Assembly (NCBI GenBank): GCA_937873095.1
Contig: CALMVI010000040.1
Span: forward strand, 1-64,000
Direction: 5' to 3'
Origin: an uncultured Acetobacteraceae bacterium
GTDB taxonomy: Bacteria > Pseudomonadota > Alphaproteobacteria > Acetobacterales > Acetobacteraceae
Length of the DNA: 64,000 nt
Below the pieces are notes generated by a model. That model saw only the letters and a list, made by a program, of their open reading frames with translations, had not been told where the DNA came from and did not search any database. The position numbers and the translations under genes were made by a program. This document shows positions 17,169 through 35,030 of this stretch, in pieces; the first letter of the stretch is position 1, and the number at the start of each line of letters is the position of its first letter.

Positions 17169-17488
17169 GCCGGCCCGGCGGGCGTCTTGGGGCAGATGTC
17201 CAGGCCCACCAGCACCTTCTCCGTGTCGGACAGGTCTCCGATCAGGCGCTTGAGCGGTGCGGGCAGCCGCCGGACGAGAGTGGGGATCGCCAGGATCTGG
17301 TCGCTCGCCGCACGCTGCGGGTTCTGGGCCAGGTCGATCACCTCGACGTCGTAGCGGCCCGCCAGATGCTCCTCGCAGACCCGCTTGAGGTTGGCGATCG
17401 CGGCCAGCGATTTCGCGGTCTGCCCGGCGACGTAGAGGCGCAGGTGATACTGTCCGTCCGCCTCGGCCTCCTGGTCCTGCGGGGTCAT
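17165..17488 (-). CDS. kaiB: KaiB-domain protein (first copy)
   Basis: This 107-residue KaiB-family protein reads [75 protein letters not shown]. The C-terminal [16 protein letters not shown] is typical of KaiB from non-cyanobacteria. ATG 17488 overlaps the kaiC stop (ATGA) and its own stop overlaps the second kaiB start. The 734-residue ORF in the track is an artefact of reading this gene through the shadow frame of kaiC. Confidence 0.94.
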
Positions 17489-19224
17489 CCCTGGCTCACG
17501 AAGCTGCGCCGCGCGGCCATGGCGTCGCGGTTCCTGGCGATCGCCGCATCGGTCTCGGCGGCTTCGGCCAGCAGCGCGGCCACCTCCTCCTCCTCCTGCT
17601 CCAGCGTCATCCGCAGCTCCTCGATCTGCCGCTCCACCGCCTGGCGCCGCCGCTGGTGCTCGCGCCGGCGCTGCTCGATCGCGCGGAGCCGCCGCGTTCC
17701 CTCGGCACGCTCCATCGCCTCCTGCGCCTCGCGCGCGGTTCCGGTCAGCACGCCGGCGGGCCCGACATAGGCGCTGGTCAGGACCACGCCGCGGTCGGTG
17801 ATCCTGTACTCGCGCATCTGGTTGGAGTGGTTCATGCCCCTGGACTTGATGATGTAGAGGATGCGGTCGCGCTCCCCGTTGGCTTCCACGTCCAGCAGCT
17901 TGATCCAGGCGTCCATCAGCGAGGAGAGCCCCTGGTCGGTCGCTTCGGCGATCGACCCGTCGGTGCGCAGGCTGGTGAACAGGCCGGTGATGCCGCGCGC
18001 CTTGAGCATGTCCACCATGCGAAGCAGCGTCGCATGCACCTGGACGGCCGGGCCGCGGAAGGCGGAGAGCGGATCGATGACGACGGTCGTCGGGCGGAAC
18101 CGCTCCAGCGCGCGATACATGCGCGCCAGATGCATCTCCAGCCCGAACAGGCTCGGACGGGCCGGCTCGAATTGCAGCAGCCCCTGGTCGGCACGCTGCC
18201 TTAGGTCGATGCCGACCGAACCGGCATTGCGGCAGATCTCGCGCGCGCTCTCCTCCAGGACGAAATACAGGCAGCGCTCGCCGCGTGCGCAGGTCGCCTC
18301 GGCGAAATGGGAGGCCAGCGTGGTCTTGCCGGTCCCCGCGACGCCGGACAGCAGGATGCTCGACCCGCGATAGAACCCGCGATGCTGGAGCATGTCGTCC
18401 AGACCCGAGATGCCGGTGCCGACAACCGTCGAGTCCACGTCGCGCTCCAGGCCGGACGAGGTGATCGGCAGGACGCTGATGCCGAGGTCGTCGATCAGGA
18501 ACGGATACTCGTTGGTGCCGTGCGCCGAGCCGCGATACTTCACCACGCGCAGCCGCCGGGTGGTGATCTGGTCGTCCACCCGGTTGTCGAGCAGGATGAC
18601 GCAGTCCGAGACGTATTCCTCGAGCCCGTGGCGGGTCAGCTGGCCTTCGCCGCGCTCGCCCGTGATGACGGCGGTCAGGTTGCGTTCCTTCAGCCAGCCA
18701 AACAGCCGGCGCAGCTCTGCCCGCAGGATCGAAGGGTCGGTGAAGCCGGAAAACAGGGTCTCGATGGTGTCGAGCACGACGCGCCTGGCGCCTATGCTGT
18801 CGACCGCAAAGCCCAGGCGGACGAACAGTCCTTCGAGGTCGTACTCGCCCGATTCCTCGATTTCGGACCGTTCCACCCGCACGTGGTCGATGGCCAGGCG
18901 GCGCGAGGCGACCAGGCCCTGCAGGTCGTAGCCGAGCGAGGCGACGTTGGCTTCGAGATCCTCGACCCGCTCCTCGAAGCTCATGAACACGCCCGGCTCG
19001 TCGTGCAGCGTCGCCCCGTTGACCAGGAAGGTGGTGGCGAACAGCGTCTTGCCGCAGCCCGCGGCGCCGCAGACCAGGGTGGGCCGGCCGGCCGGCAACC
19101 CGCCCAGCGTGATCTCGTCGAAGCCCAGTATGCCGGTAGGCGCCTTGAGCAGCCCGGCACGGTATGCCTGGGGTGAGCGGTCCTCGGTCATCGGTCGGAG
19201 CAGCACCTTGATTGCCTCCGCCAC
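17485..19224 (-). CDS. kaiC: KaiC-like double RecA ATPase/autokinase
   Basis: This 579-residue protein has two RecA/KaiC domains. CI has Walker A GAAGCGKT (53-60) and the catalytic pair E84-E85; CII has Walker A GVAGTGKT (294-301) and E324-E325. Aligning the CII tail with cyanobacterial KaiC (TDSHISTITD), the segment here is [10 protein letters not shown]. The phosphorylated Ser/Thr pair therefore corresponds to S434-S435, a Ser-Ser pair. A C-terminal coiled coil rich in E, R and Q (about 495-560) replaces the cyanobacterial A-loop/KaiA-binding tail, and no kaiA is present. It is first in the operon. ATG 19224 is used; M12 (19191) is an alternative. Confidence 0.94.
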
Positions 19225-19379
19225 GTTGTAGAGGTTTCCCTAGGCGGCGCCAGCGCTGCCCGGCGAAAACGCCGATTGTGTCCGAAGACGAGGCATGGTC
19301 TGCTTCGTGGTGCGCTCGACGCGACCGCACCGGATGGAGCACAGGCCGTTGCGGCTGCAGAGCGGGCATCGCACCACAT

Positions 19380-19430
19380 GAGCGCGCGAGTCATATGAGC
19401 GCGGGCGTCACATGAGCGCGGGCGTCACAT
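19380..19430 (+). repeat. 17-bp tandem repeat, three units, overlapping a start codon
   Basis: The 17-bp unit GAGCGCGGGCGTCACAT occurs at 19397-19413 and 19414-19430 identically. A diverged unit lies at 19380-19396, and a partial GAGCGCAAG follows. Each junction creates ATGAGCGC, and the last ATG is the start of the 85-residue gene. Unit gain or loss would change the leader but always restore an ATG. Confidence 0.85.
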
Positions 19431-19686
19431 GAGCGCAAGCGGGGCCGCGGAGCGGATGGCGGAGCTGGAAAAGCTTATCTCCAGCGTCCGTCACGACGTG
19501 TGCGGCGCGCTGACCCCGGCGCTGATGGTGGCGGACAGCCTGCAGTCGCACGCCGACCCCGCCGTGCAGCGTGCGGGGGCGAAGATCGCCCAGTCGATCA
19601 TGCGGGCGACGACGATGCTGAAAGCCACGCGCGAGGCCGTGCCGCCGATGCGGCACGCGGCGGGGGCGGACCGGCCGGGCGGGTAG
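19429..19686 (+). CDS. Small DHp-like (histidine phosphotransfer half) protein
   Basis: This 85-residue protein's MAELEKLISSVRHDVCGALTPALMVADSLQSHADPAVQRAGAKIAQSIMRATTMLKATRE resembles the two-helix dimerisation/phosphoacceptor domain of a histidine kinase. The H-box-like region is VRHDVCGALTPAL, with H22. No ATPase domain follows; the ORF simply ends. It diverges from the Kai operon across a 204-base spacer, so it could be a phosphotransfer or dimerisation partner of the Kai kinase (inference). The start is ambiguous because four ATGAGCGC copies precede it. Confidence 0.6.
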   Translation: MSASGAAERMAELEKLISSVRHDVCGALTPALMVADSLQSHADPAVQRAGAKIAQSIMRATTMLKATREAVPPMRHAAGADRPGG

Positions 19687-30042: not shown

Positions 30043-30363
30043 CTAGCCTTGCCTGGCGGGCGTTTTGACGATCAGGCCGTCCAGCTCGGCGGTGACGTCG
30101 ATCTGGCATGACAGCCGCGACGTCGTTTCCAGGTCGCTCACCAGGTCGAGCATGTCGTTCTCCGCCGATGTCGGCGCGGGCAGGCGGTCCGCCCAGGCGG
30201 GGTCGACGAACACGTGGCACGTGCCGCAGGCGCACGAGCCGCCGCAATCGGCGTCGATCCCTGGGACGCCGTTCGTCACCGCCGCCCGCATCACGGTCAT
30301 GCCGATTGCGGCGTCCACGCTGCGCGACTGTCCGTCATGCGAGACATAGGTGATCCTGGGCAT
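30043..30363 (-). CDS. Adrenodoxin-type 2Fe-2S ferredoxin
   Basis: This 106-residue ferredoxin has cluster ligands CGGSCACGTCH (C-x5-C-x2-C) and a distal CQI, in the order of vertebrate-type/putidaredoxin ferredoxins that pass electrons to monooxygenases or to Fe-S assembly. ATG 30363 is supported by TGGAGT seven bases upstream; the track's longer N-terminus (CC-rich) is unlikely. It is divergent from the flavin reductase gene, with a tandem-repeat array in the shared spacer. Confidence 0.9.
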   Translation of the reverse strand: MPRITYVSHDGQSRSVDAAIGMTVMRAAVTNGVPGIDADCGGSCACGTCHVFVDPAWADRLPAPTSAENDMLDLVSDLETTSRLSCQIDVTAELDGLIVKTPARQG

Positions 30364-30444
30364 CGGGCACTCCACAAAACAGCACGCGCCTGCGCGACGA
30401 GGGCAGCCAAAGGCCTCTGCGTGCAACACCCCGGACTGTCAACC

Positions 30445-30548
30445 GGACGGGTGCACGCGGTCCCGCATCGGGACGGGCGCACGCGGTCCCGCATCGGGAC
30501 GGGTGTACGCGGTCCCGCATCGGGACGGGCGCACGCGGTCCCGCATTG
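30445..30548. repeat. Array of four 26-bp tandem repeats, each carrying a hairpin
   Basis: There are four contiguous 26-bp units (30445-30470, 30471-30496, 30497-30522, 30523-30548). The consensus is GGACGGGCGCACGCGGTCCC plus GCATCG, and units differ at only one to three positions. Across each junction GTCCCG-cat-CGGGAC is a perfect inverted repeat. It lies in the 239-base spacer between the divergent ferredoxin and flavin-reductase genes. There are no spacers, so this is not CRISPR. Confidence 0.92.
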
Positions 30549-30602
30549 GTCTCCGCCACTTGGGCTGCTAAGCCCCGGTCAGCATAGCTGGACGACATTT
30601 CG

Positions 30603-31331
30603 ATGCGCGACACCGCCGGCCCGTCCGACACCGAGCAGCACACGCCGCCTGGCATCGACAGCAGAGCGTTCCGCAACGCTCTCGGCAGCTTCGTCACCGG
30701 CGTCACCATCATCACCACGCTCGACGAGCAGGGCCGGCCGGCCGGCCTCACCGCAAACAGCTTCAACTCCGTCTCGCTCGACCCGCCTATGGTGCTGTGG
30801 AGCCTGGCGCTGGACAGCACCTGCCTGTCCGCCTTCCGCCAGGCCGGCTGGTGGGCGGTCCACGTGCTGGCCACCGGACAGGAGCAGCTCTCCAACCAGT
30901 TCGCCCGACGCGACGCCGACAAGTTCCAGGGCGTGCCGACCATGCCCGGCCCAGGCGGCATCCCGCTGCTGGACGGCTCGGCCGCCCGTTTCGTCTGCCG
31001 CGCCGCTTTTGAGTACGAGGGCGGCGACCACGCCATCTTCCTGGGCGAGGTGCACAGCTTCGAGCAGAGCGGCCAGGCGCCCCTCGTCTACCACCAGGGC
31101 CGCTACGCCTCCGTCACCGCCCAGCCCGGCCAGCAAGCCGGTGGTGGGCCAATCTCCGGACTGGCGGGGCTTGAACGGTATGGCCTGGTCGCCGCCGCAG
31201 CCGCAGGCGGCAAGGCGCTGACCGCCACCGGACGTGAACTGACCGAAGAACTGGTCGCCCTGGCCGGCCAACGCTCGATGCCCGACCACGACATCTCCAC
31301 CCTGCGCAGGCTGCTGGGGCTACTGGGTTAG
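30603..31331 (+). CDS. Flavin reductase-like FMN-binding protein
   Basis: This is a 242-residue protein. Residues 20-160 are the flavin-reductase-like split-barrel domain: FRNALGSFVTGVTIITTLDEQGRPAGLTANSFNSVSLDPPMVLWSL is the canonical N-terminal block and GDHAIFLGEVHSF a later conserved strand. Such proteins supply reduced FMN to two-component monooxygenases. A C-terminal extension of about 70 residues (GLAGLERYGLVAAAAAGG...STLRRLLGLLG) is alpha-helical and may be a partner- or ligand-binding domain. Its TAG overlaps the convergent TSCPD gene stop. Confidence 0.88.
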   Translation: MRDTAGPSDTEQHTPPGIDSRAFRNALGSFVTGVTIITTLDEQGRPAGLTANSFNSVSLDPPMVLWSLALDSTCLSAFRQAGWWAVHVLATGQEQLSNQFARRDADKFQGVPTMPGPGGIPLLDGSAARFVCRAAFEYEGGDHAIFLGEVHSFEQSGQAPLVYHQGRYASVTAQPGQQAGGGPISGLAGLERYGLVAAAAAGGKALTATGRELTEELVALAGQRSMPDHDISTLRRLLGLLG

Positions 31332-33253: not shown

Positions 33254-34009
33254 TCAGATCGTCTGGCCGCCCGACACCTCGATGCGCTGGCCGTTCACCC
33301 ATCGGTTGTCGGGGCCGAGCAGGCTTGCGACCATCGGGCCGATATCGTCGGGCAGGCCGACGCGGCCGAGTGCGGTCATGCCGGCGAAGGTGGTGTTGTA
33401 GTCGGGGATGTCGCGCACCGCGCCGCCCAGGAAGTCGGTCTCGATCGCGCCGGGTGCGACGGTGTTTGCGGTGATGCCGCGCGCGCCCAACTCCTTTGCC
33501 ATGTAGACGGTCAGGATTTCCACCGCGCCCTTGGCGGCCGAGTAGGCCGAGAAGCCGGGGAACGACACGCGGGTCAGGCCCGACGAGAGATTGATGATGC
33601 GCCCGCCATCGGCCAGCATCGGCAACAGCGCCTGGGTCAGGAAGAACACGCCCTTGACGTGGACGGCGAACAGCTTGTCGAACTGGTCCTCCGTCGTGGC
33701 GGCGAAATCCACCATTTCGCCATGGCCGGCATTGTTGACCAGGTGATCGATCGTGTCGCGGTTGAAGGTGTCGGTCAGCGCGCGGCGCAGGGTGTCGGCG
33801 AAGGCGGGGAAGGTCGACACGGTGCCGGTGTCGAGCTGCAACGCCGCTGCCTTGCGGCCCAGCGCCTCGATCTCGGCCACGACGGCATCAGCATCATCCT
33901 TGCCGCTACGATAGGTGAGGATCACGTCGCCGCCACGGCGGGCGATGCTGATCGCGGTGTTGCGGCCGAGGCCACGGCTGCCGCCGGTCACTAGGGAAAG
34001 GGTGGTCAT
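33254..34009 (-). CDS. Short-chain dehydrogenase/reductase
   Basis: This is a 251-residue classical SDR oxidoreductase. LVTGGSRGLGRN is the nucleotide-binding TGxxxGxG, HLVNNAGHG the NNAG motif, INLSSG holds the catalytic Ser, and YSAAKGA is the YxxxK active site. The tail GPDNRWVNGQRIEVSGGQTI is typical. ATG 34009 is supported by CGGAGTG eight bases upstream and begins right before the Rossmann motif. It diverges from an AraC-family regulator that probably controls it. The substrate is unknown. Confidence 0.92.
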   Translation of the reverse strand: MTTLSLVTGGSRGLGRNTAISIARRGGDVILTYRSGKDDADAVVAEIEALGRKAAALQLDTGTVSTFPAFADTLRRALTDTFNRDTIDHLVNNAGHGEMVDFAATTEDQFDKLFAVHVKGVFFLTQALLPMLADGGRIINLSSGLTRVSFPGFSAYSAAKGAVEILTVYMAKELGARGITANTVAPGAIETDFLGGAVRDIPDYNTTFAGMTALGRVGLPDDIGPMVASLLGPDNRWVNGQRIEVSGGQTI

Positions 34010-34139
34010 GGAAGCACTCCGGTTGCTGTTGCCGATCCTATGCATCGAACTGCACCGCCGAAGTTACGCGATCAGCCGCGAGACTTGCCTGATTGTCCAA
34101 TTTCGTTGTTGGATCGTCGCGTCTCCTTATCTGGAGCGC
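34010..34139. promoter_or_regulatory. Divergent promoter region SDR/AraC
   Basis: This 130-base spacer between divergent genes is lower in GC than its surroundings. It contains the imperfect dyad GTCCAA-tttcgttg-TTGGAT (around 34096-34115), a candidate site for the AraC-family protein. Core promoter elements cannot be placed confidently. Confidence 0.4.
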
Positions 34140-35030
34140 ATGACCGATCAGCTTCTCGACTGTGCCGGGCGCTACGCCGATGCCCACGCCGACCGGACGG
34201 GGGTCGCGACGACCCCGATCGATGGATTGGTGATCCTGCGCGAGACAGCGCCGAGCATGCTGCAATACGCAGTGTCGAAGCCGCTGGTGGCGCTGGTGCT
34301 GCAAGGCCGCAAACGCGTGACGATGGGCAACCAGACCTTCGACTTCGGCGCGGGCGAATCCTTGCTCATCACCACGGACGTGCCGACCGTCAGTCAGATC
34401 ACGAAAGCCAGCCGCGTCTTGCCTCATTACTCCCTCGTTCTCGGACTCGATCCGATCACCATTGCCGGGCTAGTGGGCGAGATCGGCCTGGTTCCGTTTG
34501 AGGCGGACCGTCCGGTCAGGGTCGATCCGACCGAGGCGGAGGTCGCCGACGCGGCTTTTCGCCTGCTCCGATTGCTCGACCGCCCCCGCGCGCTGGCAGT
34601 TCTGGGACCTCAGCTCAGCCGCGAGCTGCATTATTGGCTGCTCAGCGGGCGGCATGGCGGCGCGATCCGAACTTTGGGCGTCACCGGCAGCCACGCCCAG
34701 CGGGTGGCACGGGCCGTCACCATGCTTCGCGCGCGCTATGCCGAGCCGGTGAAGGTTGAAACATTGGCCGAGGCGGCCGGCATGAGCCTGTCGGCTTTCC
34801 ACGTCCATTTCCGCAGCATCACCTCGCTGTCGCCTTTGCAGTTCCAGAAGCAGCTCCGCCTCATCGAGGCCCGGCGCCGAATGCTGGCGCTGGGCGAGGC
34901 GATCAGCGACGCCGCCTACGGCGTGGGATACGAAAGCGTGCCGCAGTTCACGCGTGAGTACGGCCGCATGTTCGGGCTGCCCCCCGCCCGCGACGTTCGA
35001 CAGGCCCGGACGCAAGTGAACGCCGCCTAG
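34140..35030 (+). CDS. AraC-family transcriptional regulator (AraC_N type)
   Basis: This is a 296-residue regulator. An N-terminal cupin-like AraC_N domain (GLVILRETAPSMLQYAVSKPLVALVLQGRKRVTMGNQTFDFGAGESLLITTDVPTVSQI) is followed by two helix-turn-helix units (VETLAEAAGMSLSAFHVHFRSITSLSPLQFQKQLRLIEARRRML and ISDAAYGVGYESVPQFTREYGRMFGLPP). ATG 34140 has TGGAG six bases upstream. Members of this group usually activate a divergent oxidoreductase gene, as the arrangement with the SDR suggests. Confidence 0.93.
   Translation: MTDQLLDCAGRYADAHADRTGVATTPIDGLVILRETAPSMLQYAVSKPLVALVLQGRKRVTMGNQTFDFGAGESLLITTDVPTVSQITKASRVLPHYSLVLGLDPITIAGLVGEIGLVPFEADRPVRVDPTEAEVADAAFRLLRLLDRPRALAVLGPQLSRELHYWLLSGRHGGAIRTLGVTGSHAQRVARAVTMLRARYAEPVKVETLAEAAGMSLSAFHVHFRSITSLSPLQFQKQLRLIEARRRMLALGEAISDAAYGVGYESVPQFTREYGRMFGLPPARDVRQARTQVNAA

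Follow-up and report, generated by a model that had tools for sequence, protein, structure and literature searches.

Bacterial minisatellites, or VNTR loci, serve in MLVA typing and consist of near-identical head-to-tail copies of an intergenic unit that is tens of base pairs long. Iterons and tandem operator arrays are direct repeats of a unit that bears a dyad, and REP/BIME and similar dispersed repeats are GC-rich intergenic palindromes. A further group comprises the phase-variable promoter repeats, among them the hmw 7-bp repeat of Haemophilus and the TA repeat between hifA and hifB, which lies in a bidirectional promoter region and tunes expression by repeat number (PMC3899988).

The array described here shares features with each of these groups. 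It was found in a window of 64,000 nt from an uncultured Acetobacteraceae bacterium (GCA_937873095.1, contig CALMVI010000040.1, positions 1 to 64,000), in the spacer between divergent ferredoxin and flavin-reductase genes. It has the tandem copies, unit length and intergenic position of a minisatellite, and differs from the described loci in that its unit contains a palindrome and that it is known here from one genome. Like the Haemophilus repeats it lies in a promoter region, but its unit is 26 bp long, no recognisable pair of promoter hexamers flanks it and the adjacent genes do not encode surface antigens. The dyad-bearing direct repeat recalls iterons and operator arrays, from which the locus departs in having no adjoining replication or regulator gene, no other genomic sites and a period that is out of helical phase.

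Structure of the array and its palindrome

Four 26-bp units run head to tail without gaps from 30440 to 30543. Unit 1 (30440-30465, CAACCGGACGGGTGCACGCGGTCCCG) has a degenerate left edge and is followed by unit 2 (30466-30491, CATCGGGACGGGCGCACGCGGTCCCG), unit 3 (30492-30517, CATCGGGACGGGTGTACGCGGTCCCG) and unit 4 (30518-30543), which has the same sequence as unit 2 and gives way to a degenerate CATTGG. TRF reported a period of 26, 3.9 copies, 93% matches, no indels and a score of 183, whereas 30 dinucleotide-preserving shuffles of the window scored 86 at best. Thus, the array is real and exceeds chance, and the first-pass annotation was correct in describing four contiguous, nearly identical 26-bp units. 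Pairwise identity of the units is 90-100%, again without indels. The identity of units 2 and 4, together with the C/T differences at unit positions 13 and 15, is compatible with recent duplication.

The array is non-coding, bracketed by the two start codons (30363 and 30603) and with a unit length that is not divisible by 3. A head-to-tail unit in the 10-100 bp range, scoring above chance, is what defines an intergenic minisatellite, and the suggestion that the array might be one holds on both its tandem copies, which exceed the shuffles, and its non-coding position. The array had also been said to fill most of the spacer; it occupies 104 of the 239 bp that separate the two start codons (44%). 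The units are contiguous and have no unique spacers between them, so that a CRISPR array was rejected, as it had been in the first-pass annotation.

The perfect 15-bp dyad GTCCCG-CAT-CGGGAC is present at 30460-30474, 30486-30500 and 30512-30526, and every complete copy straddles the junction of two units. The outermost junctions are degenerate, with CAACCGGAC (edge CCGGAC) on the left and CATTGG on the right, and therefore the dyads, correctly recognized at the outset, number three complete copies rather than four. Since the units are copies made by duplication, the dyad represents one event and not several independent observations. Among random circularised 26-mers from the window, a background drawn from GC-rich sequence, 6.4% contained a perfect hairpin whose arms were 6 or longer and whose loop was 3-8, and 1.8% contained one with a loop of exactly 3. 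The two variable C/T sites of the inner units both fall outside the dyad, an arrangement expected by chance in ~18% of cases; this is weak evidence and gives no basis for an argument from selection.

Distribution in the genome and among relatives

The source genome is a 3.69-Mb draft in 162 contigs. Searching all of it with the array DNA returned this locus alone, and no perfect dyad was found elsewhere in the 3.69 Mb. A REP-like dispersed repeat family was rejected on account of this single location, the point on which the array differs from REP/BIME. Allowing no more than one mismatch, the loose dyad GTCCCGNNNCGGGAC was found at 29 places in the genome, including the three in the array, which are the only perfect ones; base composition alone predicts ~69, and the reversed control gave 121. 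A search with the dyad plus one extra base, at up to two mismatches, returned the three copies in the array and seven scattered weak matches elsewhere, below the reversed control. The near-matches to the loose dyad do not rise above expectation or control and thus give no sign of a regulon; a regulon of dyad sites was rejected for this lack of excess.

The background rate of tandem arrays was estimated from 442 kb of stretches of the source genome (12%). Arrays with at least three copies and at least 85% identity occurred about once per 63 kb in this sample, and the 26-bp array had the top score among those with at least three copies. It is therefore a case from the upper tail of a distribution rather than an isolated one. 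Another array outside long genes of the window is a 17-bp tandem repeat at 19375-19436 (3.6 copies, 91%), in which ATG occurs four times in succession, at 19378, 19395, 19412 and 19429. Short ORFs of 6 codons begin at the first three (MSARVI, MSAGVT and MSAGVT), each running to a stop codon at the following ATG; the last ATG begins an ORF of 85 aa. Judged by its sequence, this repeat could be a start-codon repeat acting on translation or a fortuitous minisatellite. Divergent to it is a KaiC-like two-domain ATPase ORF (17485-19224, minus strand), called by eye from P-loop motifs, after which comes a KaiB-like reading.

The genus is represented by three species genomes. The nearest relative keeps the divergent pair, with 64% identity for the flavin reductase and 62% for the ferredoxin, and is the only such relative found; its spacer of ~165 bp contains no tandem repeats, array or similar motif. 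In the third member the ferredoxin and flavin-reductase genes are on separate contigs, and there is no such array at either gene. Aligned locally, a two-unit query matched the relative's spacer, the upstream regions in the third member and the flanks of the array itself no better than it matched shuffles, which led to rejection of the idea that the relatives or the flanks retain a single ancestral unit.

Across the family, the array was present at one of the 31 ferredoxin loci examined, namely this one, and upstream of the ferredoxin gene at none of the 30 others. When 398 family genomes were searched with an 18-bp junction motif (at most one mismatch), tandem multiple matches occurred here only; the other 397 yielded scattered single near-matches at about the frequency of the reversed control. 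An exact two-unit search of the GTDB contigs, which may not include the window's own genome, gave no match. Plasmid origin of the region was rejected for want of any match, and viral origin because, among 2.9 million viral contigs, the junction motif was matched exactly only twice, each time singly. Missing from relatives and from the family genomes, the array is lineage-specific and, on this evidence, young. A different array, of 12 bp and 5.3 copies, was observed upstream of a related flavin-reductase gene on a bog MAG contig (L074:2540-2603).

Gene context and alternative readings

The first-pass annotation placed the array between divergent ferredoxin and flavin-reductase genes, and both assignments stand. 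The [2Fe-2S] ferredoxin gene (30043-30363, minus strand, ATG at 30363) matches Pfam Fer2 with an E value of 4e-10, with an ISC-like NCBIfam match below cut-off, and the flavin-reductase gene (30603-31331, plus strand, ATG at 30603) matches Pfam Flavin_Reduct with an E value of 6e-39; neither reaches the NCBIfam equivalog cut-off. Nearby are the magnesium-chelatase genes bchI and bchD, an SDR dehydrogenase gene and, at 33915-35030, a gene for an AraC-type regulator. No window gene directly adjoining the pair encodes a regulator.

A TTGACA hexamer on the minus strand (30437-30442, good to a few bases) overlaps the left edge of the array and is a candidate -35 element that, from its sequence, may drive the ferredoxin gene. 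No convincing -10 accompanies it, and a promoter scan revealed no full sigma-70-like site. In the nearest relative TTGAC also occurs 5' of the ferredoxin gene, at distances of 79 and 57 bases from its start codon. The array lies outside TTGACA, the sole promoter-like hexamer noticed. If real, a ferredoxin promoter at this hexamer has the array upstream, and the number of units would consequently leave its core spacing unaltered. Beside the array, at 30421-30457, an imperfect inverted repeat, CGTGCA...CCGG-ACTGTCAA-CCGG...TGCACG, surrounds TTGACA; comparison of the unit with this left flank was no better than with shuffles.

Three perfect 15-bp dyads within a divergent promoter region, adjoined by a TTGACA hexamer and spared by both variable sites, could suggest a multimerised operator, in which every dyad is a binding site for a dimeric regulator that acts as repressor or activator of one gene or both. 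Such an arrangement is unlikely. The same site was found neither at other promoters of the genome nor conserved at orthologues in the family, and the iteron-like operator sites proposed in the first-pass annotation lack support on these grounds: the genome holds no second array or perfect dyad and no excess of near-matches, the orthologous spacer contains nothing similar, and family conservation is absent. The gene pair also lacks a regulator gene directly beside it. Moreover, the 26-bp period corresponds to ~2.5 helical turns at 10.5 bp/turn, which places adjacent dyads on opposite helical faces; phased operator arrays differ in this respect.

It is also improbable, and slightly more so, that the array is a slippage-prone promoter spacer whose unit number differs among cells or strains and thereby tunes both genes. 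Near-identical tandem copies inside a bidirectional spacer speak for this, and the hifA/hifB repeat of Haemophilus offers a precedent (PMC3899988). However, the array is not situated between any recognisable -35/-10 pair, and the genes encode metabolic electron carriers rather than surface antigens. Neither the operator-array nor the phase-variation reading has positive support. The two might be combined in a recently multiplied operator of an undescribed ferredoxin/flavin-reductase regulator, with unit number as a heritable tuning knob for redox expression, a proposal to which we give very little credence.

An element acting at the RNA level, with the array in a transcribed 5' leader and its stem-loops affecting translation or RNA stability, is more doubtful still. 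RNA folding of the array is slightly better than that of shuffles (z = -1.9 on the plus strand and -1.7 on the minus strand; DNA z = -0.9), but a tandem palindrome by itself yields such scores, and any tandem repeat containing a dyad should show modest gains of this kind. An Rfam search gave no family match up to E = 1, and the array is not conserved; with the modest z-scores, the missing Rfam match led to rejection of a structured RNA. That the real number of units is other than four, as an artefact of assembling a 162-contig draft with identical units 2 and 4, is hardly to be believed, since the ~104-bp array fits inside one ordinary short read and the copies are told apart by edge and internal differences.

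Origin and meaning of the array

The array is probably a recent, species- or strain-level minisatellite with a fortuitous palindrome. One GC-rich intergenic stretch of 26 bp would have happened to hold a palindrome with 6-bp arms, and would then have been multiplied in tandem to four copies through replication slippage or unequal recombination. The two redox genes would each have their own promoter flanking the array, which would amount to an insertion of ~104 bp in the spacer between the two promoters. Presumably, the array is neutral or influences spacing only; most likely, it has no dedicated regulator and its effects are minor at most. Its top score in the 442-kb sample, its place in a divergent promoter region beside TTGACA and, weakly, the location of the variable sites outside the dyad argue against so ordinary an explanation.

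As an ordinary minisatellite, the array has little significance beyond possible use as a strain-typing marker. Were unit number found to vary and to alter expression, the locus would exemplify promoters tuned by repeats in a metabolic rather than an antigenic context.
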